Below, one piece after another: positions 2,220 through 22,353 of a DNA stretch of 22,418 bases; position 1 is the stretch's first letter, and the number at the start of each line of letters is the position of its first letter. Source of the stretch: Chloroflexota bacterium (GTDB taxonomy: Bacteria > Chloroflexota > Ktedonobacteria > Ktedonobacterales > Ktedonobacteraceae); assembly GCA_902812455.1 (NCBI GenBank), contig CADDZH010000089.1, positions 1 through 22,418 of the forward strand, written 5' to 3'. Under the pieces are notes generated by a model. It did not search any database. It saw only the letters and a list, made by a program, of their open reading frames with translations, and was not told the DNA's origin. Position numbers and translations under genes: made by a program.

Positions 2220-2540
2220 ATGCGTAGCGGGGATTGGAATAGGGAATATCCAGGTGAGGATTATCCTCCGCCAGCATCTGTGATCATAGCTGGTAGAGAG
2301 GTGAAAGCTGGGGATCGTGTGCGCCTGCATCCAAAAGCCAGGGCTGATGCATTCGATATGCTGCTCGAAGGGAAAACGGCGAGGATCGAGGCCATCCAGC
2401 AGGATTTCGAGAATCGCCTCTACCTGGTGGTAACCATGGATGATGATCCTGGCAGGGAGCAGTGGGATGAGCGCGTGCTTCCTGGCCATCGATTTTTCTT
2501 TTTCCCGGAGGAAGTAGAAGTGCTGGAGGAGAGTTTATGA
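2220..2540 (+). CDS. Small conserved hydrogenase-cluster protein
   Basis: This 106-residue protein has no membrane segment. Its core reads REVKAGDRVRLHPKARADAF, then EGKTARIEAIQQDFE, LYLVVTMDDDPG and GHRFFFFPEEVEVLE. The pattern suggests a small beta-barrel. I recall similar short proteins immediately before the maturation protease in group 1h hydrogenase clusters, but I know of no function. ATG 2220 has a GAAGGAGA ribosome-binding site at about 2206-2213. The stop overlaps the protease start as ATGA (2537-2540), so translation is coupled and a role in the same maturation step is a reasonable inference. Expression may be affected by the repeat just upstream. Confidence 0.75.
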   Translation: MRSGDWNREYPGEDYPPPASVIIAGREVKAGDRVRLHPKARADAFDMLLEGKTARIEAIQQDFENRLYLVVTMDDDPGREQWDERVLPGHRFFFFPEEVEVLEESL

Positions 2541-3064
2541 GTCTTGCAGGAGAAGGCAAGCCCAGGCGCATCTTAATCGCCTGTATTGGTAATATCTTTC
2601 TAGGAGATGATGGCTTTGGGGTCGAGGTGGCGCAACGGCTAAAAGACCGGCGCTACCCGGAGGGCGTGCAGATCGTCGATTTCGGTATTCGCGGCATGGA
2701 TCTGGCGTATACCCTGCTAGACGATTACGATGCGCTCGTGCTTGTGGATGCAGTTCCACATGGTGGCCAGCCAGGGACTCTCTACCTGATTGAGCCTGAT
2801 TTGTCAGGCTTAAACCCGGAGAAAGGGGCAGAAGCGGGGAGAGTGGGACTGGATGCTCACAGCATGGATCCTGTCAAAGTGCTTACCTTTGCCAGAACTC
2901 TCGGAGCCAGGCCAGTCCGCACGCTGCTTGTCGGCTGCGAGCCTGCTCCTTTTGGAGGCGAAGATTACGCTGAGATGCAGATGGGGTTGAGCAAGCCGGT
3001 TCAGGCCGCTGTTGATAAGGCCATTGAAATGATCGACTCACTTGTTCAGGAATTGCTATCGTAG
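2537..3064 (+). CDS. [NiFe]-hydrogenase maturation protease (HyaD/HybD/HycI family)
   Basis: This family cleaves the C-terminal tail of the hydrogenase large subunit after nickel insertion, in the cytoplasm. The 175-residue length fits the family. The N-terminus has the characteristic IACIGNIFLGDDGFGVEV strand and loop. By alignment to HybD, the nickel-sensing ligands are D25 (Glu in HybD, Asp here), D71 in LVLVDAVPHG and H108 in DAHSMDP. DFGIRGMDLAY and the C-terminal helix also fit. It follows the small gene with an ATGA overlap and precedes the DUF6893-like peptide and hypA. The large subunit it would process is not in the window. The subfamily name (for example HyaD or HupD) cannot be settled from the sequence alone. 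Confidence 0.92.
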   Translation: MSLAGEGKPRRILIACIGNIFLGDDGFGVEVAQRLKDRRYPEGVQIVDFGIRGMDLAYTLLDDYDALVLVDAVPHGGQPGTLYLIEPDLSGLNPEKGAEAGRVGLDAHSMDPVKVLTFARTLGARPVRTLLVGCEPAPFGGEDYAEMQMGLSKPVQAAVDKAIEMIDSLVQELLS

Positions 3065-3160
3065 GTTCCCGATTTATCGTGGAACCCGATGTATCGCGCC
3101 CCCACCAATTCATTGGCAAGTTGTCAATTCATTGATACATTGGCCTCCCTGACGGGAGCC
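3064..3160 (+). promoter_or_regulatory. Leader with hairpins before the DUF6893-like gene
   Basis: Three inverted repeats follow the protease stop codon. GGTTCC (3064-3069) pairs with GGAACC (3081-3086) around a CGATTTATCG loop. CCAATTCATTGG lies at 3105-3116, with a partial echo CAATTCATTG at 3125-3134. CTCCC (3145-3149) pairs with GGGAG (3154-3158). The ribosome-binding site AAAGGAG follows at about 3171-3177. A similar arrangement stands before hypD. This may be a remnant of dispersed repeats or an mRNA-processing or stabilising leader; no T-run is present, so it is not a typical terminator. Confidence 0.45.
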
Positions 3161-3184
3161 AGGTTTGACGAAAGGAGCAAAACC

Positions 3185-3295
3185 ATGTCTAAGGCACTTC
3201 TTGTAGTACTTGCAGTCATTTTACTCATTGTAGGATACCTGTTTATCCAATCATTGCCAGACATCCAGCGTTATCTCAGAATTCGCTCGATGTAA
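3185..3295 (+). CDS. DUF6893-like small membrane peptide
   Basis: This 36-residue peptide consists of a short start (MSK), one hydrophobic helix (about residues 4-22, ALLVVLAVILLIVGYLFIQ) and the basic tail SLPDIQRYLRIRSM. The tail pattern SLPD-RYL-IR-M matches the DUF6893 small proteins that I know from actinobacterial hydrogenase clusters between the protease and hypA, which is its position here. It probably sits in the cytoplasmic membrane with the basic tail at one face, and could tether a hydrogenase subunit; that role is inference. ATG 3185 has AAAGGAG at a suitable distance. An in-frame ATG at 3089 would add repeat-derived sequence and lacks a ribosome-binding site, so I rejected it. 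Confidence 0.8.
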   Translation: MSKALLVVLAVILLIVGYLFIQSLPDIQRYLRIRSM

Positions 3296-3364
3296 TGGCC
3301 GGGCTGGTAAGCGCCGGAAAGTCGGGCGAGGTTCATTTTTTGCACCAAAGCGGGGAAAGGATCA

Positions 3365-3491
3365 GTAGGGGCGGGGATGGACGGGAAGCGAAGTGGGGGC
3401 GCTTGCGCCGCCCGCGTTCCCGGGCACCTGGCATAGATGGCGGGGCGAGGCAAGCCTCTCCACCTCCCATCCACGCCGCCCCCGCCCCTAC
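3365..3491. repeat. GTAGGGGC-ended dispersed repeat upstream of hypA
   Basis: This element is bounded by GTAGGGGCGGGG at the left and CCCCCGCCCCTAC at the right, which are inverted repeats. It is GC-rich and contains a GGCGCTTGCGCC inner palindrome. It fills most of the 210-bp gap between the DUF6893-like gene and hypA and ends 14 bp before the hypA start codon. Related termini occur at five other places in the window. There is no transposase and no convincing gene inside. Confidence 0.75.
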
Positions 3492-3505
3492 AGAAATGAT
3501 GCAGG

Positions 3506-3856
3506 ATGCATGAACTGGCTATTGCCCAAAGTATCGTTGACACCGTTGAAACGAAGGCAACGGAGTGTAGCGCAACACGAGTGAAGGGTGTGCGACTACG
3601 CATTGGTGAAGCGAGTGGCGTGGTGATTGACTCGTTGACCTTTTGCTTTGACATGGTAGCCAGCCAGTACCCGCTCTTGTCCGGCGCTCAACTGCTCATC
3701 GATACTGTGCCGCATCGCGGGCGATGTCGTCACTGCGCCAGCGAATTTGCCATAAGCAACTTTGTCGCGCAGTGCCCGTTGTGCGAGCAGTGGGACACCG
3801 AAGTCATTTCCGGCACAGAGCTCCAGCTCGTTGAAATGGAAATCGAAACGGCGTAG
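3506..3856 (+). CDS. hypA: HypA, hydrogenase nickel insertion protein
   Basis: HypA brings nickel to the hydrogenase large subunit together with HypB. The 116-residue length is usual for the family. The protein begins MHELAIAQSIV, giving the nickel ligands H2 and E3, and carries the structural zinc site C74, C77, C90 and C93 (CRHC and CPLC). The C-terminus ISGTELQLVEMEIE is typical. The conserved MHE fixes the start at 3506. There is no clear ribosome-binding site; the GTAGGGGC repeat ends just 14 bp upstream and may have replaced it. The gene lies between the DUF6893-like gene and hypB, and the gap to hypB is taken up by the second 69-bp repeat. Confidence 0.96.
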   Translation: MHELAIAQSIVDTVETKATECSATRVKGVRLRIGEASGVVIDSLTFCFDMVASQYPLLSGAQLLIDTVPHRGRCRHCASEFAISNFVAQCPLCEQWDTEVISGTELQLVEMEIETA

Positions 3857-3877
3857 AGGCCCGATTTATCGCGCCCA

Positions 3878-3946
3878 TGTCATGTTGAGTGAAGCGAAAC
3901 ATCCGCTGCCGATCGACAGAGATCCTTTGCTTCGCTCAGGATGACA
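3878..3946. repeat. 69-bp dispersed palindromic repeat, copy 2
   Basis: This copy differs from the one at 2085-2153 at three positions (a C/T change in the left arm, one in the central palindrome, and one in the right arm). It lies in the same orientation in the hypA-hypB gap. It is preceded by the fragment CCCGATTTATCG, which also occurs just before the DUF6893-like gene (near 3069), so two repeat families seem to be nested here. Confidence 0.9.
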
Positions 3947-4002
3947 TATTATAGAGCCTTTAATTTGTTAAGACTCATTATCGCTCCTAGAGAGAGGTAT
4001 AC

Positions 4003-4689
4003 ATGCCCAAAGTCACTATTGCACAAAATATCCTGGCAGCCAATGATAGCATTGCTGAAGAGATCAAGCAGCAGCTTTCAGCGCAGGGCATTCGCACGAT
4101 CAACCTGATGAGTTCGCCGGGCGCCGGCAAGACGACCTTGCTAGAGCGCACTATTGAGTGGCTCAAGGGACAACTTGCAATCGCTGTGATTGAGGGCGAT
4201 ATCGAGACAACCGCAGACGCGGAGCGCATTGAGGCAGCGGGCGCGGAGACAGTGCAGATCAATACGCGGGGAGCATGCCACCTGGAGGCGCATATGGTTC
4301 GTGACGCGCTACAGCAGCTTGACCTGGCACATATCGACCTGCTCTTTATCGAGAATATCGGCAATCTTGTCTGCCCTGCTGCCTGGAATCTGGGAGAGGA
4401 TACCAGCGTCGTTGTCGTAAGCACCACGGAAGGGGACGACAAGCCGGCAAAGTATCCGCAAATGTTTGCGGCCTCGCAGGTCATGATCATGAATAAGCTT
4501 GATTTGCTGCCCTATGTGGATTATGATCTGAAGAAAGCGAAGAGACTGGCACTGTCCGTCAACCCCCATCTACGAATATTCGAGATGAGTTGCAGGACTG
4601 GCGAAGGTCTGGATGCCTGGTGTGAATGGCTTATGGCAATGGCGCGAGGTAGAGAATCTCTTGTAGGTATACAGACACTAGAGACGTAG
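4003..4689 (+). CDS. hypB: HypB, hydrogenase nickel incorporation GTPase
   Basis: HypB is a GTPase that works with HypA to load nickel into the large subunit. The 228-residue protein has the P-loop SSPGAGKTT (37-45), the EGDIETTADAERI switch region, the metal-site motif GACHLEAHM with C92 and H93, C124 in NLVCPAAW, and the guanine-specificity motif NKLD. It lacks an N-terminal His-rich nickel-storage stretch. ATG 4003 is preceded by AGAGAGAGG about 7 bases upstream. The start is 147 bp after hypA because of the repeat; hypF follows after 33 bp. The family call is secure. Confidence 0.96.
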   Translation: MPKVTIAQNILAANDSIAEEIKQQLSAQGIRTINLMSSPGAGKTTLLERTIEWLKGQLAIAVIEGDIETTADAERIEAAGAETVQINTRGACHLEAHMVRDALQQLDLAHIDLLFIENIGNLVCPAAWNLGEDTSVVVVSTTEGDDKPAKYPQMFAASQVMIMNKLDLLPYVDYDLKKAKRLALSVNPHLRIFEMSCRTGEGLDAWCEWLMAMARGRESLVGIQTLET

Positions 4690-4722
4690 CTTTGAAGTTG
4701 CTAGCGGGAAGTGTGATCTTCT

Positions 4723-7122
4723 ATGGCACCGGTGATGGGGAGAACCATTGAGCGAAGACGCATCCTCGTGCAGGGGATTGTGCAAGGCGTAGGCTTCCGG
4801 CCTTTCGTCTATGGGCAGGCCATACGCCGGGGCCTGACTGGCTTCGTCTTCAATGATAGCAATGGCGTGACCATCGAGATCGAGGGGACACCCAATGAAC
4901 TTGATGGCTTCCAGCATGCCTTATACACAGAGGCGCCACCCCTGGCACGCATCGATGCTGTAACCATCGCAGCGATACCGCCTCGCTATGAACATGCCTT
5001 CGTCATTACTCATAGCCACGCCGGCAGCGAGCGCAGGGCACTCATCTCGCCCGATACTGCCACCTGTGATGATTGCCTGCGCGAGCTTTTCGACCCCGCA
5101 GACCGGCGCTACGGCTACCCGTTCATCAACTGCACCAATTGCGGCCCGCGCTTCACCATCGTTCAGGATGTACCCTACGATCGCGATAAGACAACGATGC
5201 GGGTGTTCCCTATGTGTCCCGCCTGCCAGGCAGAATACGATAACCCCCTCAACAGGCGCTTTCACGCCCAGCCCAACGCCTGCCCTACCTGTGGCCCTCA
5301 CGTGTCCCTGCTCGATTGGAATGAAACAACATCTGTAGGGGCGGACGAGGATGAGAGGGGTGGTAGGGACGCTTGCGTCGCCCCCTCAGATCATTCATAC
5401 GACACCATTATCACTGCCGCCCGGCGCCTCGCTGCTGGCGCCATCCTTGCCATCAAAGGCCTGGGAGGCTACCACCTGGCATGCGATGCGCTCAATGCCG
5501 AGGCCGTGCAGCGCTTGCGCCAGCGCAAACACCGCGAGGCCAAACCCTTCGCCCTCATGGTACCTGACGTGGAAACAGCCCGCCAACTGTGCCATGTGAG
5601 CGAAGCAGAGGCAGAGCTGCTGCAATCGCGCCAGCGTCCCATTGTGCTCTTGAAGCAGCGTACCGGCTGCCCGGTAGCGCCGGCCGTCGCTCCGGCCTAC
5701 AACACGCTGGGCATCATGCTGCCCTATACGCCATTGCACCACCTGCTGCTGCACGCCTTCGCAGAAGCCATTGGACCTGGTTGCCCGGCAGTACTCGTCA
5801 TGACTAGCGGCAATGTGAGCGATGAACCTATCGCCTACCGGGACGATGACGCTCAGCACCGGCTAGCGCCTATCGCCGATGGCACGTTGACACACAATCG
5901 CGATATCCACATGCGCTGCGATGATTCAATCGTGCGCACCGTGGCTGGCGGCCAGCAGGTGTTCCGCCGCTCGCGTGGCTATGTGCCTGAGCCGATCCCG
6001 CTTGCATTCGATTGCTCGCTGCCACTGCTGGCCTGCGGCGCTCATCTCAAGAACACGTTTTGCCTGGGCAAAGCGGGACAGGCCTTTATCAGCCATCATA
6101 TCGGCGACCTGGAGAACCTGGAGACCCTCACCTCGTTCCGTGAAGGGATCGAGCATTTCCAGCGCCTCTTCGATATTTATCCTGAAGCGATTGCTTACGA
6201 CCTGCATCCCGAATACCTGGCCACCAAATATGCGCTCGATAGTGATATCCCACAGAAGATTGGCGTCCAGCATCATCATGCCCATATAGCCAGTGTCCTG
6301 GCCGAGCATGGCCTGGCCGGGCCGCTGATCGGCATTGCTGCCGATGGTACAGGTTATGGAACCGATGGAGCAGTATGGGGCTGCGAGATTATGGTGGCTG
6401 GCCTCGTAGGGTTTGAGCGGTTGATGCACCTGGCCTATGTCCCGCTTCCCGGAGGCGAACAGGCCATACGCCAGCCCTGGCGCATGGCAGCCGTTTACCT
6501 CGCCCAGGCCTACGGCGATGCATTCTTAGACCTGGATATTCCCTTCGTTCGCCAATTCGATCGCTCAAAATGGCGCATGCTATCCCAAATGGTCGCGAAG
6601 GGCATCAATAGCCCACCAACATCGAGCCTGGGGCGCTTATTCGACGCGGTTGCCGCGCTGGTAGGTATACGCAATGAGGTACTCTACGAGGGCCAGGCAG
6701 CCGTTGAGTTGGAGATGCAGGCCGCGCAAACGGACAGCAGGGATATTTATCCATTTGCTATCGGAGAACAGATGCCAGCATTGCTGGACGTGACGCCTAT
6801 GATCCGTGCCATTGTGTACGATATCCAGCAGCATGTACCTGTATCACTGATCGCATATCGTTTCCATTGCTCAATTGCAGCATTGCTGGCAGCAGCCTGC
6901 CTCAAAGTTCGTGAGCAGAGCGGGTTGAACACCGTTGCGCTTAGCGGTGGCGTCTTCCAGAACCGCCTGTTGCTTGAGCAGCTTATACCACTCCTGGAGG
7001 CAATGGACTTCCAGGTCTATACGAACCGGCGCGTGCCGCCCAACGATGGTGGCATCAGCCTTGGGCAGCTCGCTATCGCTGCCACGAAGTTATCTGTAGG
7101 GGCCCAATTCATTGCGCCCTGA
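4723..7122 (+). CDS. hypF: HypF, carbamoyltransferase for hydrogenase cyanide ligands
   Basis: HypF makes carbamoyl-adenylate from carbamoyl phosphate and ATP and passes the carbamoyl group to HypE. The 799-residue protein has an acylphosphatase domain (about 10-95, VQGVGFRPFVY), four CxxC zinc pairs (C115/C118, C137/C140, C165/C168, C187/C190), a YrdC-like domain (from about 225, AIKGLGGYHLACDA) and a Kae1-like domain with the HHHAH site (517-521), DGTGYG and ALSGGVFQNRLL. Residues about 205-222 are a GTAGGGGC repeat read in frame, and the last eight residues (VGAQFIAP) are another repeat. The start is uncertain between M1 and M5 (4735), as neither has a strong ribosome-binding site. It lies 33 bp after hypB and 23 bp before hypC. 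Confidence 0.96.
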   Translation: MAPVMGRTIERRRILVQGIVQGVGFRPFVYGQAIRRGLTGFVFNDSNGVTIEIEGTPNELDGFQHALYTEAPPLARIDAVTIAAIPPRYEHAFVITHSHAGSERRALISPDTATCDDCLRELFDPADRRYGYPFINCTNCGPRFTIVQDVPYDRDKTTMRVFPMCPACQAEYDNPLNRRFHAQPNACPTCGPHVSLLDWNETTSVGADEDERGGRDACVAPSDHSYDTIITAARRLAAGAILAIKGLGGYHLACDALNAEAVQRLRQRKHREAKPFALMVPDVETARQLCHVSEAEAELLQSRQRPIVLLKQRTGCPVAPAVAPAYNTLGIMLPYTPLHHLLLHAFAEAIGPGCPAVLVMTSGNVSDEPIAYRDDDAQHRLAPIADGTLTHNRDIHMRCDDSIVRTVAGGQQVFRRSRGYVPEPIPLAFDCSLPLLACGAHLKNTFCLGKAGQAFISHHIGDLENLETLTSFREGIEHFQRLFDIYPEAIAYDLHPEYLATKYALDSDIPQKIGVQHHHAHIASVLAEHGLAGPLIGIAADGTGYGTDGAVWGCEIMVAGLVGFERLMHLAYVPLPGGEQAIRQPWRMAAVYLAQAYGDAFLDLDIPFVRQFDRSKWRMLSQMVAKGINSPPTSSLGRLFDAVAALVGIRNEVLYEGQAAVELEMQAAQTDSRDIYPFAIGEQMPALLDVTPMIRAIVYDIQQHVPVSLIAYRFHCSIAALLAAACLKVREQSGLNTVALSGGVFQNRLLLEQLIPLLEAMDFQVYTNRRVPPNDGGISLGQLAIAATKLSVGAQFIAP
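5335..5386. repeat. GTAGGGGC repeat inside hypF
   Basis: The segment starts GTAGGGGCGGACGAGG and ends in the palindromic word GGGACGCTTGCGTC followed by GCCCC. It is translated as VGADEDERGGRDACVAPS between the last zinc finger and the YrdC-like domain of HypF. The same GTAGGGGC start and a similar CGCTTGCG centre occur in the intergenic element before hypA, which marks it as a member of the dispersed family. Confidence 0.75.
7096..7119. repeat. GTAGGGGC/CAATTCATTG repeat forming the hypF 3' end
   Basis: The 24-bp segment begins GTAGGGGCCCAATTC and ends ATTGCGCCC. It matches the reverse complement of 10247-10270 at 23 of 24 positions. It encodes the last eight residues of HypF, and the stop codon TGA follows directly. 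Confidence 0.8.
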
Positions 7123-7145
7123 AACCAGTTGAAAGGAGAATCAAC

Positions 7146-7418
7146 ATGTGCCTCGGTATTCCTGGTAAGGTTATAGACATCGTGGACGATGCCAACTCCA
7201 TCGCCAAGGTCGATGTTTCAGGCGTGAAGCGCAACGTCAATGTGGCCCTGGTACGCCCTGAAGGTATCGGGCCTGGAGATTGGGTCTTGATCCATGTCGG
7301 CTTCGCCATGAGCAAAATTGACGAGGCTGAAGCCCAGGACACGCTGAAAGCCCTAAAAATGATGGGCGATGTCTATACTGACGAACTCAAAATGATCCAT
7401 TCCAGCCAGATCGAATGA
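7146..7418 (+). CDS. hypC: HypC, hydrogenase maturation chaperone
   Basis: HypC forms a complex with HypD, carries the Fe(CN)2CO unit, and delivers it to the large-subunit precursor. The 90-residue protein starts MCLGIPGKVI, with the essential Cys2 free after removal of Met1, and contains GDWVLIHVGFAMSKID, the family signature. ATG 7146 is preceded by AAAGGAGAA at a good spacing. It is followed after 7 bp by the first SIS-domain gene. A second, divergent HypC-like gene lies two genes on, so this is the canonical copy. Confidence 0.95.
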   Translation: MCLGIPGKVIDIVDDANSIAKVDVSGVKRNVNVALVRPEGIGPGDWVLIHVGFAMSKIDEAEAQDTLKALKMMGDVYTDELKMIHSSQIE

Positions 7419-7425
7419 GGCGTTC

Positions 7426-8049
7426 ATGAATTCAATGAACATGGAAAGGGAACAATCAGACCTGCTGGCCCTTGTGAGGGCACGCTTCGAGCAAAGCATG
7501 AGTGTGCCTGAAGCATTCTTCGCGGCTGAGTCAGGACGTATTGCCGAGGCATGCTGGGCCATGGCTCGCCGCTTCCACCAGGGTGGTCGATTGCTCGCTT
7601 TCGGTAACGGTGCCTGGGCAACCGATGCGCAACATGTCTCGGTCGAATTTGTACATCCGGTCATCGTTGGCAAGCGAGCGTTGCCAGCCCTTGCGCTTAC
7701 CAACGATAGCGCCACACTGAGCGGCCTGATGGCCGGAGGAGATGCTGAGATGCCTTTCTCCCGCCAACTGAGGGCGCTGGCCCGGCCACAAGACATAGCG
7801 ATGGGCTTCTCACCGGATGGGAATAGCGCCAATGTGCTGGCAGGGCTGGCCATTGCCAAAGAGATGGGTCTGCTCACGCTGGCCCTTGTTGGTGGCAATG
7901 GCGGATTGTTGAAGCACGCAGGGATGGATTTCTGCTTCGTGGTGCAGGCGGACGATCCGCTGGTCATCCAGGAGACGCATGAGACGCTGTACCATGTGTT
8001 ATGGGAACTGGTACACGTTTTCTTTGAACATGAAGGGTTATTGGAATGA
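7426..8049 (+). CDS. SIS-domain protein, GmhA-like, hydrogenase-cluster paralogue 1
   Basis: This 207-residue protein has a sugar-isomerase (SIS) fold of the phosphoheptose isomerase (GmhA) type: LLAFGNGAWATDAQHVSVEF (about 62-81), the nucleotide-fold strand ALPALALTND, and the phosphate loop SPDGNSANV, where typical SIS enzymes have STSGNS. The replaced loop residues suggest altered or lost sugar-phosphate binding. The C-terminal helix has QETHETLYHVLWELVH, like GmhA. It is placed between hypC and a HypC-like gene and overlaps the latter by an ATGA. SIS genes occur in this position in group 1h hydrogenase clusters, but what they do there is not known to me. ATG 7426 has GAGG upstream; M4 or M6 are alternatives. 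Confidence 0.85.
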   Translation: MNSMNMEREQSDLLALVRARFEQSMSVPEAFFAAESGRIAEACWAMARRFHQGGRLLAFGNGAWATDAQHVSVEFVHPVIVGKRALPALALTNDSATLSGLMAGGDAEMPFSRQLRALARPQDIAMGFSPDGNSANVLAGLAIAKEMGLLTLALVGGNGGLLKHAGMDFCFVVQADDPLVIQETHETLYHVLWELVHVFFEHEGLLE

Positions 8050-8300
8050 CGAATCACGAAATGCCAGGCGCTCCATACTGCATACCTGATGCAGAAGGAC
8101 ACTGTATCACCTGTTCCGATGAAGCCGTGTCTGTGAAAGTCTTACAAGTTGACCAGGGAGCAGGCGTAGCGCTGGTTGCGGTAGAGGACAAGACAGAGGA
8201 GATTGATATAAGCCTGGTGGAAGGTGTTGCGCCGGGCGACCTGCTGCTGGCGCACGGGGGCGTAGCTATTGGCCATCTAGAAGAGGGAACCAATGAATAG
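8046..8300 (+). CDS. Divergent HypC-like protein (HypC/HybG/HupF family)
   Basis: This 84-residue protein has the small beta-barrel pattern of HypC (AVSVKVLQVDQGAGVALVAV, then EIDISLVEGVAPGDLLLAHGGVAIGHL). It does not start with Met-Cys. Instead it has an extended N-terminus with C12, C20 and C23 (C-x7-C-x2-C, ending CITCSDEA). The essential Cys2 of canonical HypC is therefore absent, so it may act differently, for example as a specialised chaperone or metal carrier for the hydrogenase encoded in this cluster. It overlaps the first SIS gene by 4 bp and the second by 8 bp, which indicates strict co-translation of the SIS-HypC-like-SIS trio. Similar proteins accompany actinobacterial hydrogenases. 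Confidence 0.8.
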   Translation: MTNHEMPGAPYCIPDAEGHCITCSDEAVSVKVLQVDQGAGVALVAVEDKTEEIDISLVEGVAPGDLLLAHGGVAIGHLEEGTNE

Positions 8301-8964
8301 CGCAGAGGGTTCTGAGTACGATCGGCTCTTTTACCCCTTCCTTTTTGAGGGAGGCAGAGCCAGTATAGAGGATGTCCTGGCTCAGGTGCGCCACTCGACA
8401 CTTGAAAAGTGCCACGAGGTGGTGGCGCTGCGCCGTGCGACGCTCGAAGGCTGGGGCCTGCAGATTGTTGCGGCTGGCCAGGCGATGGCGCAGGCCTTTG
8501 CCGGGGGAGCTACGCTGCTGGCTTTTGGCAACGGGGGAAGCACGACCGACGCTCAAGACCTGGTGACCGAATTGCTTAACCCGCCGTTCCCACACTGGAG
8601 ACCTTTACCGGCTATCGCCCTGACGAACGACATCGCCGTGGTCACGGCGGTAGGCAATGATGTCGGGTTCGAGAATGTGTTTGCCCGCCAGGTAATTGCT
8701 TATGGCCGGAAGGGCGATATTGCTCTTGGCATCTCGACAAGCGGCAACTCAACCAATGTGCTGGTGGCTCTTGAGCAGGCAAAGAAGCAAGGGCTCCTGA
8801 CCGTAGGACTGGTGGGATATGAAGGCGGGAAAATGATGCGCTCACCCGCAGTGGATATATGCATCAATTCACCAAGCGATCACATCCCGCGCATCCAGGA
8901 AGCGCAGGCGACGGTTTATCACGCGCTCCTTGAACTTATTCACATCTTATTGAATAATCAGTAA
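8293..8964 (+). CDS. SIS-domain protein, GmhA-like, hydrogenase-cluster paralogue 2
   Basis: This 223-residue protein is a phosphoheptose-isomerase-like SIS protein with an intact signature: LLAFGNGGSTTDAQDLVTEL, the strand PLPAIALTND, and the phosphate loop GISTSGNSTNVL. The C-terminal helix IPRIQEAQATVYHALLELIH is typical of GmhA. An extra N-terminal segment (FYPFLFEGGRASIEDVLAQV) is not usual in GmhA. It overlaps the HypC-like gene by 8 bp with GAGGGA as ribosome-binding site. With paralogue 1 it could form a heteromeric SIS pair in which only this subunit keeps the usual ligand loop; that is inference. No lipopolysaccharide heptose genes are nearby, so a role in sedoheptulose metabolism is not supported by context. 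Confidence 0.88.
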   Translation: MNSAEGSEYDRLFYPFLFEGGRASIEDVLAQVRHSTLEKCHEVVALRRATLEGWGLQIVAAGQAMAQAFAGGATLLAFGNGGSTTDAQDLVTELLNPPFPHWRPLPAIALTNDIAVVTAVGNDVGFENVFARQVIAYGRKGDIALGISTSGNSTNVLVALEQAKKQGLLTVGLVGYEGGKMMRSPAVDICINSPSDHIPRIQEAQATVYHALLELIHILLNNQ

Positions 8965-8971
8965 CGTAGAG

Positions 8972-9008
8972 TGCCAATTCATTGGCATGTTGACTCCCTT
9001 GTGGGGTC
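8972..9008 (+). promoter_or_regulatory. Leader with hairpins before hypD
   Basis: TGCCAAT (8972-8978) and ATTGGCA (8981-8987) form a perfect 7-bp inverted repeat. GACTCC (8992-8997) pairs with GGGGTC (9003-9008). The ribosome-binding site GGGAGGA of hypD follows. The order matches the leader before the DUF6893-like gene: CCAATTCATTGGCA, then GTTG, a short hairpin, and GACGAA with a GGA-rich site. It may be a repeat remnant or a shared post-transcriptional element. Confidence 0.45.
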
Positions 9009-9032
9009 AGGAAAGACGAAGGGAGGACACAG

Positions 9033-10187
9033 ATGAGTATGAAATATGTTGACGAGTACCGGGATGCTGACCTGGCGAAGCGCATTTGTACTGAGATTGA
9101 AAAACTGAGCGCTGGCCAGCCTCTCAAGTTGATGGAAGTGTGCGGCGGCCATACCCACACCATTTACAAACATGGGATCGAGGATATCTTGCCAGGCAAC
9201 ATCGATCTCGTTCACGGGCCAGGCTGCCCCGTTTGCGTCCTCCCCATGGGCCGCATCGACGATGCCATCGCCATTGCTCGCATGGATGGGGTAATCTTCA
9301 CCACCTTTGGCGATATGATGCGCGTTCCAGGCTCTAAAGGCAGTCTGCTCGATGTTAAGGCCGAGGGGGCCGATGTGCGCTTTGTTTACTCACCCCTGGA
9401 TGCCCTCAAGCTGGCCCGGCAGTATCCCGACCGGCAGGTCGTCTTCTTCGCCATCGGCTTTGAAACGACTGCTCCTTCTACTGCCATAACACTCCTGAGA
9501 GCAAAAGCCGAAGGGATCGAGAATTTCTCGGTCTTCTGTAATCACGTGACGATTGTGCCCGCCATCAAAGCCATCCTGGACTCGCCCGACCTGCGCCTCG
9601 ATGGCTTCATCGGCCCCGGCCATGTCAGCATGGTCATAGGTATGAGGCCCTACAACTTCATTGCTCGTGACCATCACAAGCCGGTAGTGATATCCGGGTT
9701 CGAGCCGCTGGATATTATCCAGTCCGTCTACATGATTGTCAAACAGATTAGCGAGGGCCGCGCGGAAGTTGAGAACCAGTATACGCGAGTAGTGCGCCCG
9801 GAGGGCAATGTCAAGGCGCTCGAAGCTATGGCGCGCACGATGGAATTACGCCCATTCTTTGAATGGCGCGGCCTTGGCTTCATTACGCATAGCGCCCTCA
9901 AGTTACGTTCAGAGTTCGCAGACTGGGATGCCGAGTTACGCTACGAAGTGCCTGGATTGCGCGTGGCCGATCCTAAGGCCTGCCAGTGTGGTGAGGTACT
10001 CAAAGGTGTGATCAAGCCCTGGCAGTGCAAGGTCTTCGGCACGGCCTGCACACCCGAAACGCCCATCGGAACCTGCATGGTTTCTCCAGAGGGAGCCTGC
10101 GCCGCCTACTTCAATTACGGGCGCTTTTCGATGGCAGCCGAGCGTCATCGCCTGAACGTTCTTCCTACAGCCAATGTCCAGGTATGA
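9033..10187 (+). CDS. hypD: HypD, hydrogenase Fe-(CN)2CO assembly protein
   Basis: HypD is an iron-sulphur scaffold that, with HypC, assembles the Fe(CN)2CO centre. The 384-residue protein has the conserved MEVCGGHTH (C37), GPGCPVC (C65, C68) and the C-terminal Cys-rich region with C317, C319, C332, C339, C348 and C356, where the [4Fe-4S] ligands lie. FAIGFETTAPSTAI and FIGPGHVSMVIG are also typical. ATG 9033 is preceded by GGGAGGA; M3 at 9039 is a less likely start. It comes 68 bp after the second SIS gene and 134 bp before hypE. All key residues appear intact. Confidence 0.96.
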   Translation: MSMKYVDEYRDADLAKRICTEIEKLSAGQPLKLMEVCGGHTHTIYKHGIEDILPGNIDLVHGPGCPVCVLPMGRIDDAIAIARMDGVIFTTFGDMMRVPGSKGSLLDVKAEGADVRFVYSPLDALKLARQYPDRQVVFFAIGFETTAPSTAITLLRAKAEGIENFSVFCNHVTIVPAIKAILDSPDLRLDGFIGPGHVSMVIGMRPYNFIARDHHKPVVISGFEPLDIIQSVYMIVKQISEGRAEVENQYTRVVRPEGNVKALEAMARTMELRPFFEWRGLGFITHSALKLRSEFADWDAELRYEVPGLRVADPKACQCGEVLKGVIKPWQCKVFGTACTPETPIGTCMVSPEGACAAYFNYGRFSMAAERHRLNVLPTANVQV

Positions 10188-10246
10188 GGGCAATAGGTTG
10201 CCAACCTTTGGGGTGATTCACGAGGATGAGCCGATAAACCGGCGGT

Positions 10247-10270
10247 GGGCGCAATGAATTGCGCCCCTAC
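10247..10270. repeat. CAATGAATTG/GCCCCTAC repeat before hypE
   Basis: This 24-bp element reads GGGCGCAATGAATT then GCGCCCCTAC; GGGCGCAAT and ATTGCGCCC are inverted repeats around a short centre. It is the reverse complement, with one mismatch, of the segment that forms the hypF 3' end. A longer in-frame start for hypE (GTG/ATG-type at 10259) would lie inside it. Confidence 0.8.
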
Positions 10271-10321
10271 GGTGTACCCGGAAGGTTAGAGAGCCGGGCG
10301 ATACAAAAAGAGGAAGCACAT

Positions 10322-11434
10322 ATGGATACATCTATAACGAACAATGCGTCTCCCGTTGACGACGTACTGAAAAAGATCGAGCGCACGCGGCAGGCTCGTC
10401 GCCATAAATTTTACCTGCGCGACGAGAAAGTGACCCTCAGTCATGGCAGCGGCGGCAAGGCAACCCACAACCTGATTGAAGGCGTCTTTGCTCCAGCTTT
10501 TTCAAACCCCCTCCTTGATCCCATGGATGATGCTGCTACCTTCGGCATCAATGGCACGGGAGAGCGCCTGGCGTTCACCACCGATACTTACGTGGTCAGC
10601 CCGCTGTTCTTCCCCGGCGGAGATATCGGCAAACTGGCGGTTCATGGCACGATCAACGACCTGGCCATGGCCGGAGCGACGCCATTATATCTTTCAGCCG
10701 GCTTTATCCTGGAAGAAGGTTTCCCTATAGCCGATCTGAAGCGTATCGTTGCCTCTATGGCGCAGGCGGCAACTGAGGCAGGTGTCGCTATCGTTACCGG
10801 TGATACGAAGGTTGTGCAGCGTGGCAAAGCTGATGGGCTGTTCATCAATACGGCAGGAGTGGGCGTGATCCGCACGAGCTGGCCAATTGGCCAGACCCGC
10901 TTGCAGCCAGGAGACAGGGTGCTCCTCAGCGGCCCGGTCGGCAATCATGGCATCGCCATTATGATGGCGCGCGAAGCGCTGGATATTGAGACAGATGTGC
11001 AGAGCGACACAGCTCCGCTTCACACGCTCGTAGCTGCGATCCTGGAAGCAGCCGGTGAAGGAGTGCATTGCCTCAAGGACCCCACACGCGGCGGAGTGGC
11101 GACGGCGCTCAATGAAATGGCGCTCGCCTCAGAGGTTGCCATTGCGCTCGACGAGCACGCGGTGCCCGTTCATCCAGAAGTACGTGGCGCCTGTGAGATT
11201 CTGGGCCTTGATCCGCTGACCATTGCCAACGAGGGCAAGCTGATCGCCATCGTGGCTCCAGAACAGGCGGAAGCTGCGCTGGCGGCTATGCGCAATCACC
11301 CGCTTGGGCAAGAAGCGGTGATGATCGGCACTGTTCAGGAGGAGCCGCCAGGGATGGTCTTTCTGCGTACTGAGATCGGCGGCATACGCGTGCTGGATAT
11401 GCTGGTTGGAGACCCGCTGCCCCGCATCTGCTAA
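10322..11434 (+). CDS. hypE: HypE, carbamoyl dehydratase
   Basis: HypE accepts the carbamoyl group from HypF on its C-terminal cysteine and dehydrates it with ATP to a thiocyanate, the source of the cyanide ligands. The 370-residue protein has the AIR-synthase-like fold: VTLSHGSGGKATHNLI, DDAATFGI, TDTYVVSPLFFPGGDIGKLA, TGDTKVV, LSGPVGNHGIAIMMAR and KDPTRGGVATALNEMA. It ends in the diagnostic PRIC, whose cysteine is carbamoylated. The start at 10322 has AGAGGAAG upstream. An upstream in-frame start at 10259 would add 21 residues from a repeat and was rejected. It is the last hyp gene of the cluster; a GTAGGGGC element follows it. Confidence 0.97.
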   Translation: MDTSITNNASPVDDVLKKIERTRQARRHKFYLRDEKVTLSHGSGGKATHNLIEGVFAPAFSNPLLDPMDDAATFGINGTGERLAFTTDTYVVSPLFFPGGDIGKLAVHGTINDLAMAGATPLYLSAGFILEEGFPIADLKRIVASMAQAATEAGVAIVTGDTKVVQRGKADGLFINTAGVGVIRTSWPIGQTRLQPGDRVLLSGPVGNHGIAIMMAREALDIETDVQSDTAPLHTLVAAILEAAGEGVHCLKDPTRGGVATALNEMALASEVAIALDEHAVPVHPEVRGACEILGLDPLTIANEGKLIAIVAPEQAEAALAAMRNHPLGQEAVMIGTVQEEPPGMVFLRTEIGGIRVLDMLVGDPLPRIC

Positions 11435-19288: not shown

Positions 19289-19364
19289 GGGGATGTAGCT
19301 CAGTTGGAAGAGCGCGACAATCGCACTGTCGAGGTCAGGGGTTCGAGCCCCCTCATCTCCACCA
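19289..19364 (+). tRNA. tRNA-Ala (anticodon CGC)
   Basis: The cloverleaf is complete. The acceptor arm GGGGATG pairs with CATCTCC and contains the G3-U70 pair that marks alanine tRNAs. The D arm is GCTC/GAGC, and the anticodon arm CGACA/TGTCG holds the loop ATCGCAC, giving anticodon CGC (19322-19324). The T arm is AGGGG/CCCCT with loop TTCGAGC. Discriminator A and an encoded CCA (19362-19364) complete it. It reads GCG codons. Confidence 0.95.
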
Positions 19365-19410: not shown

Positions 19411-19439
19411 TTGCAAATCGCAAACAGGTGTGGTATAGT
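19411..19439 (+). promoter_or_regulatory. Promoter of the leuS T-box transcript
   Basis: TTGCAA (19411-19416), a 17-base spacer and TATAGT (19434-19439) give a good housekeeping promoter. Transcription would begin near 19446, shortly before T-box stem I. Confidence 0.65.
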
Positions 19440-19671
19440 ATCCTTGCAGTTGAGCATACTAGCGATGAGCAGGAGTAGTAGGTCGCTTTTCAGGCAGAGA
19501 GTAGCCGGCCGGTGCAAGGCTACAACCCATCAGACCGAACTCGCCTGTGAGCAGCAAGCGTGAAGTCCTCGTGGGTCTAGCGCTTGCCGGGACGCCCGTT
19601 ATAGCGTGCAATGAGAAGCATCATTCTCGTTGTGTTCTTGCCAGGACTCTATCGCATCTACGCATTCGTCT

Positions 19672-19747
19672 GGGCCTGTAGCGCAGTTGGAAGAGCGTCT
19701 CTATGGCATGGAGAAGGTCAGGGGTTCGAGTCCCCTCAGGTCCACCA
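19672..19747 (+). tRNA. tRNA-Ala (anticodon GGC), inside the T-box leader
   Basis: The cloverleaf is complete. GGGCCTG pairs with CAGGTCC, including the alanine identity pair G3-U70. The D arm is GCGC/GAGC with one mismatch. The anticodon arm TCTCT/GGAGA holds the loop ATGGCAT, giving anticodon GGC (19705-19707). The T arm is AGGGG/CCCCT with loop TTCGAGT. Discriminator A and an encoded CCA end at 19747. It reads GCC/GCT codons. It has no clear promoter of its own and lies downstream of the T-box promoter and upstream of the T-box terminator. Confidence 0.95.
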
Positions 19748-19810
19748 CTACCTTTGATCCCGGTCCACACACGATTAGAATGATGCAAAATCAGGGTGGT
19801 ACCACGGAAT

Positions 19811-19843
19811 AACCTTTCGTCCCTCGCGGATGAAAGGTTTTTT
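19811..19843 (+). terminator. T-box intrinsic terminator
   Basis: AACCTTTC (19811-19818) pairs with GAAAGGTT (19832-19839) and runs into six T residues (19838-19843). Its left arm overlaps the antiterminator, so the two structures exclude each other, as expected of a T-box switch. The leuS start is 36 bases downstream. Confidence 0.9.
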
Positions 19844-19878
19844 GGTTATTAGAGAGTGTACAGGGGAGAGATGGCGCA

Positions 19879-22353
<2,475 letters not shown>

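Follow-up and report, generated by a model that had tools for sequence, protein, structure and literature searches.

A complete tRNA-Ala(GGC) gene within stem III of a predicted leucine-type T-box leader of leuS in Chloroflexota and distant bacteria

Genes for tRNAs are located within larger transcripts, for example in the spacers between 16S and 23S rRNA, and the locus described here is alike in that a tRNA would be excised from a larger structured transcript, but unlike in that the host RNA is a predicted tRNA-sensing leader and that the tRNA interrupts its sensing domain. The class to which this leader is closest is the transcriptional, Leu-specific leuS T-box (Rfam RF00230), with which it shares a full model match, the GAA-CTC specifier loop, stem III, a UGGN antiterminator with an overlapping terminator and leuS downstream, and also stems II and IIA/B, in the window (as the whole analysed stretch of 22,418 nucleotides is called) and in most loci seen. 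In contrast to that class, stem III here ends apically in a complete gene for tRNA-Ala(GGC), and the leader would serve as a tRNA precursor as well. Within the available excerpts of the respective sources, stem III is described as variable, flanked in the form 5'-RRRxG-Stem III-AA-3' and part of the discriminator which senses aminoacylation (PMC7583486, PMC7778990), with insertions noted in translational T-boxes, in the excerpt without a tRNA (PMC7583486). Compared with stem III as known from these excerpts, the helix here encloses a tRNA of 75-76 nt with its flanks, and does so in a terminator-bearing T-box. Contiguous or tandem T-boxes, as far as the excerpt of their description extends (PMC12452182), are likewise compound T-box leaders before amino-acid genes, but join several switches, whereas here a tRNA gene is nested in one switch. 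A full-text literature search found no description of a tRNA gene inside a T-box; earlier T-box surveys may mention it.

The window is the stretch from 1 to 22,418 of contig CADDZH010000089.1 of a member of the Ktedonobacteraceae, and the leader with its gene is located on the + strand. The RF00230 model matches 19456-19827 over its positions 1-219 with a score of 93.8 bits, just above gathering at 93 (E 1.1e-19), and the alignment opens 155 inserted positions in the third stem of the model, with the tRNA inside them. Aligned to the model, stem I has the approximate limits 19462-19552 and carries the Leu specifier CTC at 19540-19542 within GAACTCGCC, followed by stem II (GCAAGCG/CGCTTGC, 19554-19587), the stem IIA/B region CGGGACGCCCGTTA (19588-19601) and the T-box or antiterminator (19793-19824) with its UGGU bulge at 19797-19800, which is overlapped by an intrinsic-terminator-like hairpin (19811-19839) that ends with its T run at 19843. 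The specifier agrees with the downstream gene leuS (19879-22353), which encodes a leucine--tRNA ligase of 824 aa (TIGR00396, 1008 bits with a cut-off of 548). The embedded tRNA-Ala(GGC) with G3:U70, A73 and encoded CCA extends over 19672-19747 as called by ARAGORN, and a tRNA is called here by Rfam as well.

The initial annotation, which had been made from the letters alone, had assigned stem I with its CTC and the antiterminator/terminator to one Leu-type T-box and had seen an intact tRNA-Ala(GGC) with CCA nested at this place. The first assignment is confirmed by the model match, which spans the element end to end, the second by ARAGORN for type and limits and by Rfam, and the coordinates given then proved correct by the covariance model, ARAGORN and a terminator search. 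The covariance search which it had proposed for the region accepted the whole unit across the tRNA, stem I included.

A further tRNA gene, tRNA-Ala(CGC) with encoded CCA (19289-19364; ARAGORN, Rfam), is the upstream neighbour outside the T-box, on the same strand. L001, L011, L029 and L038 are among the Chloroflexota loci in which ARAGORN lists the same order of tRNA-Ala(CGC) and then the T-box with tRNA-Ala(GGC). Elsewhere in the window, 2537-11434 harbours hydrogenase maturation genes, of which hypD (9033-10187) was recognized by family search and the others by eye. Two SIS-domain isomerase-like genes lie among them (7426-8049 and, by eye, 8293-8964), and the product of 7426-8049 is GmhA-like, yet scores below the curated cut-off.

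Directly before stem I, a promoter-like site TTGCAA-17-TATAGT is present at 19411-19439, and when 14 leaders, the window included, were compared by eye, a similar box was seen in 13, the exception being L101. Owing to this position each transcript would contain the tRNA, which upholds the earlier expectation that every transcript of the T-box would carry it. A separate promoter for leuS was considered at 19754-19781 in the tRNA trailer (9/12), but as shuffles of the region yield 0.7 such sites on average, this site is not considered real. The -35 region TTGCAAATCGCAA (19411-19423) of the leader promoter is an inverted repeat TTGC-N5-GCAA that may be a regulator site, and close copies of it were seen by eye in most of the 14 leaders compared.

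Judged by its sequence, the embedded tRNA is a functional gene. G3:U70, the alanine identity pair, and A73 are present in 94 of 94 tRNAs (93 listed and that of the window), and in an alignment of 48 of the 57 listed segments 1008 of 1008 cells of the cloverleaf pairs are paired (100%), with 14 of the 21 pairs changed on both sides, a number reached by none of 500 shuffles. As MAFFT misaligned the 5' flanks, pairs in this alignment were counted for the tRNA only. The invariant identity elements and the fully paired, covarying cloverleaf exclude a pseudo-tRNA.

In 50 of the 60 genomes searched, the embedded gene is the sole tRNA-Ala(GGC) gene found (46/50, 0/5 and 4/5 in three sets), many of the genomes being MAGs, in which second copies may therefore be missed. 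The set of 50 genomes was hand-picked from the embedded loci and excludes those of L011, L021, L038, L039 and L048, which were searched separately and showed two copies each. One match to the tRNA pattern was obtained in 42 of the 50 and two in 8; judged by the anticodon stem, the second matches are tRNA-like in 4 genomes and not in the other 4, which gives a single copy in 46/50. The embedded copy itself was confirmed to fit the tRNA-Ala(GGC) pattern in 48 of the 50, the other two loci being cut upstream, and the backward control pattern matched twice in G328 and once in G017. The Ktedonobacteria G001-G005 possess two tRNA-like copies each (a third match in G005 is not tRNA-like), while among five more genomes close to the window a single copy was found in G009, G133, G308 and G266 and two in G294. 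G133 harbours the LeuS nearest to that of the window (L181, 88% over 459 residues). On the other hand, named Ktedonobacteria (Tengunoibacter, four Dictyobacter and two Ktedonobacter) have a second tRNA-Ala(GGC) copy in 7 of 7 cases, so that, for the named genomes, an only copy does not apply in the group of the window. The finding of a sole copy in 50/60 genomes argues that the embedded tRNA-Ala(GGC) must be transcribed, cut out and charged.

The nesting is not confined to the window. When the genome collection was scanned for a T-box antiterminator 20-50 nt behind a tRNA 3' end, at least 120 loci were obtained. Among the matches listed, an ARAGORN tRNA ends at the matched CCA in 108 of 120 loci and is tRNA-Ala(GGC) at the T-box position in 93 of 120 (93 of the 108 with a tRNA call); 12 of the 120 lack an ARAGORN tRNA there, among them L009, L030 and L070, which are cut close upstream, the former two still serving as genome handles. 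The 15 listed loci with other, scattered tRNAs have a T-box in 0/15 cases, at the gathering score as well as at E up to 0.01. The pattern itself occurs once in the window and in 0/100 shuffles, which together with the same tRNA in 93/120 listed loci and the lack of T-boxes at the 15 other-tRNA loci excludes chance adjacency.

According to the record names, the listed tRNA-Ala(GGC) loci belong to Chloroflexota (Chloroflexi), namely Ktedonobacter, Dictyobacter, Tengunoibacter, Thermomicrobiales, Caldilineae and Anaerolineae, to many Bacillota, and to Armatimonadota and Atribacterota. The record names include Syntrophomonas, Thermosyntropha, Pelotomaculum, Symbiobacterium, Carboxydothermus, Orenia, Armatimonadetes, Atribacteria and one Actinomycetota MAG, and two listed MAGs named Proteobacteria and Steroidobacteraceae may be misbinned. 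With a wider pattern, 25 of 301 genomes sampled from the phylum of Tengunoibacter matched, all 25 loci being Ala(GGC), and 30 of 149 from the phylum of Thermosyntropha, 29 of them called Ala(GGC) and L209 uncalled; the backward control pattern gave 0 matches in either sample (301 and 149 genomes). By these counts, the nesting was seen in a minority of the genomes of either phylum. Downstream of the leaders, leuS follows directly or, where the stretch is long enough, after an ilvE-like, acyl-CoA-ligase-like or GNAT-like gene, the names of the relatives' genes, leuS included, being a reading of protein starts rather than a family search.

The T-box, too, recurs around the tRNA. The covariance search of related genomes that had likewise been suggested initially found a T-box that extends across the tRNA in all 8 genomes searched, and likewise at 17 of 18 diverse loci. 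In the 8 genomes the full-length RF00230 matches reach 82.8 to 133.2 bits, that of G005 remaining below gathering; 7 of the 18 loci reach the gathering score, and at E up to 0.01 the other 11 include 10 whole-model matches across the tRNA with 52.3-90.9 bits. At L015 no T-box match over the tRNA was obtained at E up to 0.01, and a weak match of 34 bits is located upstream. The CTC specifier motif is present in 122 and absent from 8 of the 130 distinct embedded loci listed, duplicated flanks having been removed before counting these and the 107 distinct loci used below. Three more loci without the motif were searched: a T-box extends across the tRNA at L078 and L093, and for L072 no RF00230 match was found around the tRNA-Ala(GGC) which precedes an antiterminator. 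L015 and L072 may be decayed or divergent leaders. As GCC stands beside CTC in GAACTCGCC, self-sensing via an Ala specifier was considered and rejected; relatives read CTC-A-CC, CTC-G-TC or CTC-G-CC, so that CTC is the constant part.

Some Bacillota leaders (L213 and L214, also L212 and L215) seem by eye to consist of stem I, the tRNA and the antiterminator, with stems II and IIA/B missing. With a threshold of E 0.001, 18 to 21 T-box matches were obtained in each of the Ktedonobacteria genomes of L011, L048, L038, L021 and L039, and many of these do not reach gathering. In G007 and G008, with 11 and 10 T-box matches, the leuS T-box is, in a comparison by eye with the tRNAs listed, the only one that contains one of them.

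Where exactly the tRNA is accommodated follows from the helix around it. The initial annotation had placed it between stem I and the antiterminator; its position inside the T-box stands and can be sharpened to stem III, whose strands in the minimum-energy fold of this region are 19618-19635 (GCATCATTCT, then GTTGTGT) and 19769-19786 (ACACGAT, then AGAATGATGC), the latter followed by AA. Here 19618-19627 pairs with 19777-19786 over 10 bp, and an extension of 7 bp between 19629-19635 and 19769-19775 encloses the tRNA. At this place, the loci nearest to the window pair with other letters, for example CATACCG/CGGTATG in L086, CATCAAT/ATTGATG in L189 and AATTACAG/CTGTAATT in L184. The longest helix of L011, L021, L039 and L103 was found elsewhere than at the place of stem III.

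In a fixed register, taken from sequence motifs alone, 78% of six positions are paired versus 56 +/- 2% with shuffled partners, the maximum of 2000 shuffles being 63%; this test covers 58 distinct flank pairs, drawn from the 82 loci of 107 that were usable, and omits the other 25, the window among them. A helix anchored by RRRNG and AA with at least six uninterrupted bp is present in 69 of the 130 distinct loci listed, compared to 7.9% with swapped partners, and is shorter than six bp in 61. Its first three pairs vary (GAC/GTC, GGT/ACC, GAT/ATC, GGC/GCC, GTC/GAC, AGC/GCT and others), and many loci show the order RRRNG-helix ... helix-AA in the register of stem III; in the window, the helix and AA are present and RRRxG is matched only in part. 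Less specific measures gave a weaker signal, as the noisy duplex energies of long unanchored flanks are significant at p<=0.05 in 23 of 94 listed loci (median p 0.13), and the longest unanchored helices differ moderately (mean 7.5 vs 6.1 with swapped partners). The energies of two folded stretches of the window do not stand out from those of shuffles (z -1.13 and -0.44), and the minimum-energy fold of its whole leader does not recover the T-box fold. A local hairpin of 10 pairs (19608-19633, loop GCATCA), not seen in the listed relatives, would hide the 5' strand of stem III in the window and could be a folding delay or chance. In many loci, covariation attests a genuine enclosing helix, with the tRNA as the apex of stem III. 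By the sequence tests applied, the element is a T-box, with the partial RRRxG of the window to be kept in mind and with a putative response to tRNA, and would have an unexpected second function as a tRNA source.

These observations are probably best accounted for by a composite leader with dual output, in which a Leu T-box for the leuS operon and a precursor of tRNA-Ala(GGC) are combined in one RNA. Points that weigh against it are the unremarkable folds of the window with its competing hairpin and partial RRRxG, the 61/130 loci with less than six anchored pairs, L015 and L072, the 8/130 loci that lack CTC, and the second copies in the named Ktedonobacteria. Transcription would start at the promoter-like site before stem I, and stems I and II would capture uncharged tRNA-Leu(GAG), as presumed from ordinary T-boxes; with a strict pattern, this tRNA was found in only 5 of 14 related genomes. 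The tRNA-Ala would be made next and fold independently, stem III would then close around it, and the discriminator would read the 3' end of tRNA-Leu at the T-box bulge, leading to read-through or termination, while the CCA end of the embedded tRNA would be kept away from the bulge by stem III. Placed at the tip of stem III, which is a variable element, the tRNA may well leave the discriminator undisturbed. As stem III pairs the 5' leader of the tRNA with its 3' trailer, it would probably delay RNase P and 3' processing until the decision has been made. For RNase P, a helix which abuts the tRNA should slow 5' cutting, and as 0-5 nt separate helix and tRNA in 41 of the 69 loci whose anchored helix has at least six bp, an order of decision first and processing second is plausible in those 41. 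Later cutting would free the tRNA and leave a leuS mRNA that starts near the antiterminator.

With the terminator downstream of the tRNA, terminated and read-through RNAs would both supply tRNA-Ala, and the supposition of the initial annotation that the supply of this alanine tRNA is linked to leucine is not supported. Since both products contain the tRNA, its supply would be set by the promoter, and leuS alone would be switched. The nesting may persist because loss of the leader would mean loss of the tRNA, where this is the sole copy.

A different explanation, possible but somewhat doubtful, is that a tRNA gene landed in the loop of stem III, was tolerated and has become hard to remove, with no interplay with the switch. 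Stem III is variable, and translational T-boxes often have insertions there, as the excerpt of one source indicates (PMC7583486), and the status as sole copy in 50/60 genomes would explain persistence equally without interplay. Such an entrenched coincidence is less readily reconciled with the presence of the module in very distant lineages, with leuS downstream directly or behind another gene, and with its retention in some genomes that have a second copy, although the genomes were chosen for having the module and losses were uncounted.

Control by processing itself appears unlikely. Here, tRNA-Leu would stabilize stem III and the antiterminator and thereby block RNase P and 3' cutting, or early cutting would abort the switch. 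Under such control, and to be regarded with the same reserve, shortage of leucine would turn leuS on and slow the release of tRNA-Ala(GGC). The short free 5' leader of 0-5 nt in 41/69 loci with the anchored helix would fit, as would the tRNA being the only copy found in 50/60 genomes and the recurrence of the nesting across phyla. Against it, the free leader between helix and tRNA ranges from 0 to 45 nt across loci and amounts to 36 nt in the window, and with so variable a length a tight steric block is not universal. A further reading, in which uncharged tRNA-Leu closes stem III and thus in one step commits leuS to expression and withholds tRNA-Ala(GGC) from RNase P, so that one leader would act as a device for two tRNAs, is quite unlikely. 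If it were true, shortage of leucine would throttle the decoding of GCC alanine codons and raise LeuRS, with the tRNA in question being the sole copy in many genomes.

The tRNA could alternatively serve as a kinetic spacer, since an insert that separates the docking region of the T-box from its deciding region would be suited to delay RNA polymerase by some extra 150 nt between docking of tRNA-Leu and the choice of the antiterminator; this is improbable, as a constant functional tRNA with G3:U70 is left unexplained. Least credible of all is a built-in ligand, whose ACCA end would pair with the UGGU bulge and set basal read-through: A73-CCA is complementary to UGGU, present in 87 of the 94 listed embedded T-boxes including that of the window (last base of UGGN T in 87, C in 4 and A in 3), but a fully encoded CCA is absent from 4 of 34 matches in the phylum of Thermosyntropha (G358, G404, G442 and G475) and thus dispensable, a closed stem III would keep the CCA end from the bulge, and the specifier is the Leu codon CTC and no alanine codon.

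For the composite leader as favoured here, a practical consequence concerns annotation, as tRNA finders report an isolated tRNA-Ala and the regulatory leader around it stays hidden, and at 11 of the 18 diverse loci RF00230 does not reach its cut-off. In very distant bacteria, a tRNA-sensing switch and a tRNA gene would be united in one molecule, each in the folding path of the other. If this reading is true, the decision of the T-box must be compatible with processing of the tRNA, so that in these leaders the relative timing of transcription, folding of the riboswitch and RNase P would be open to direct test.
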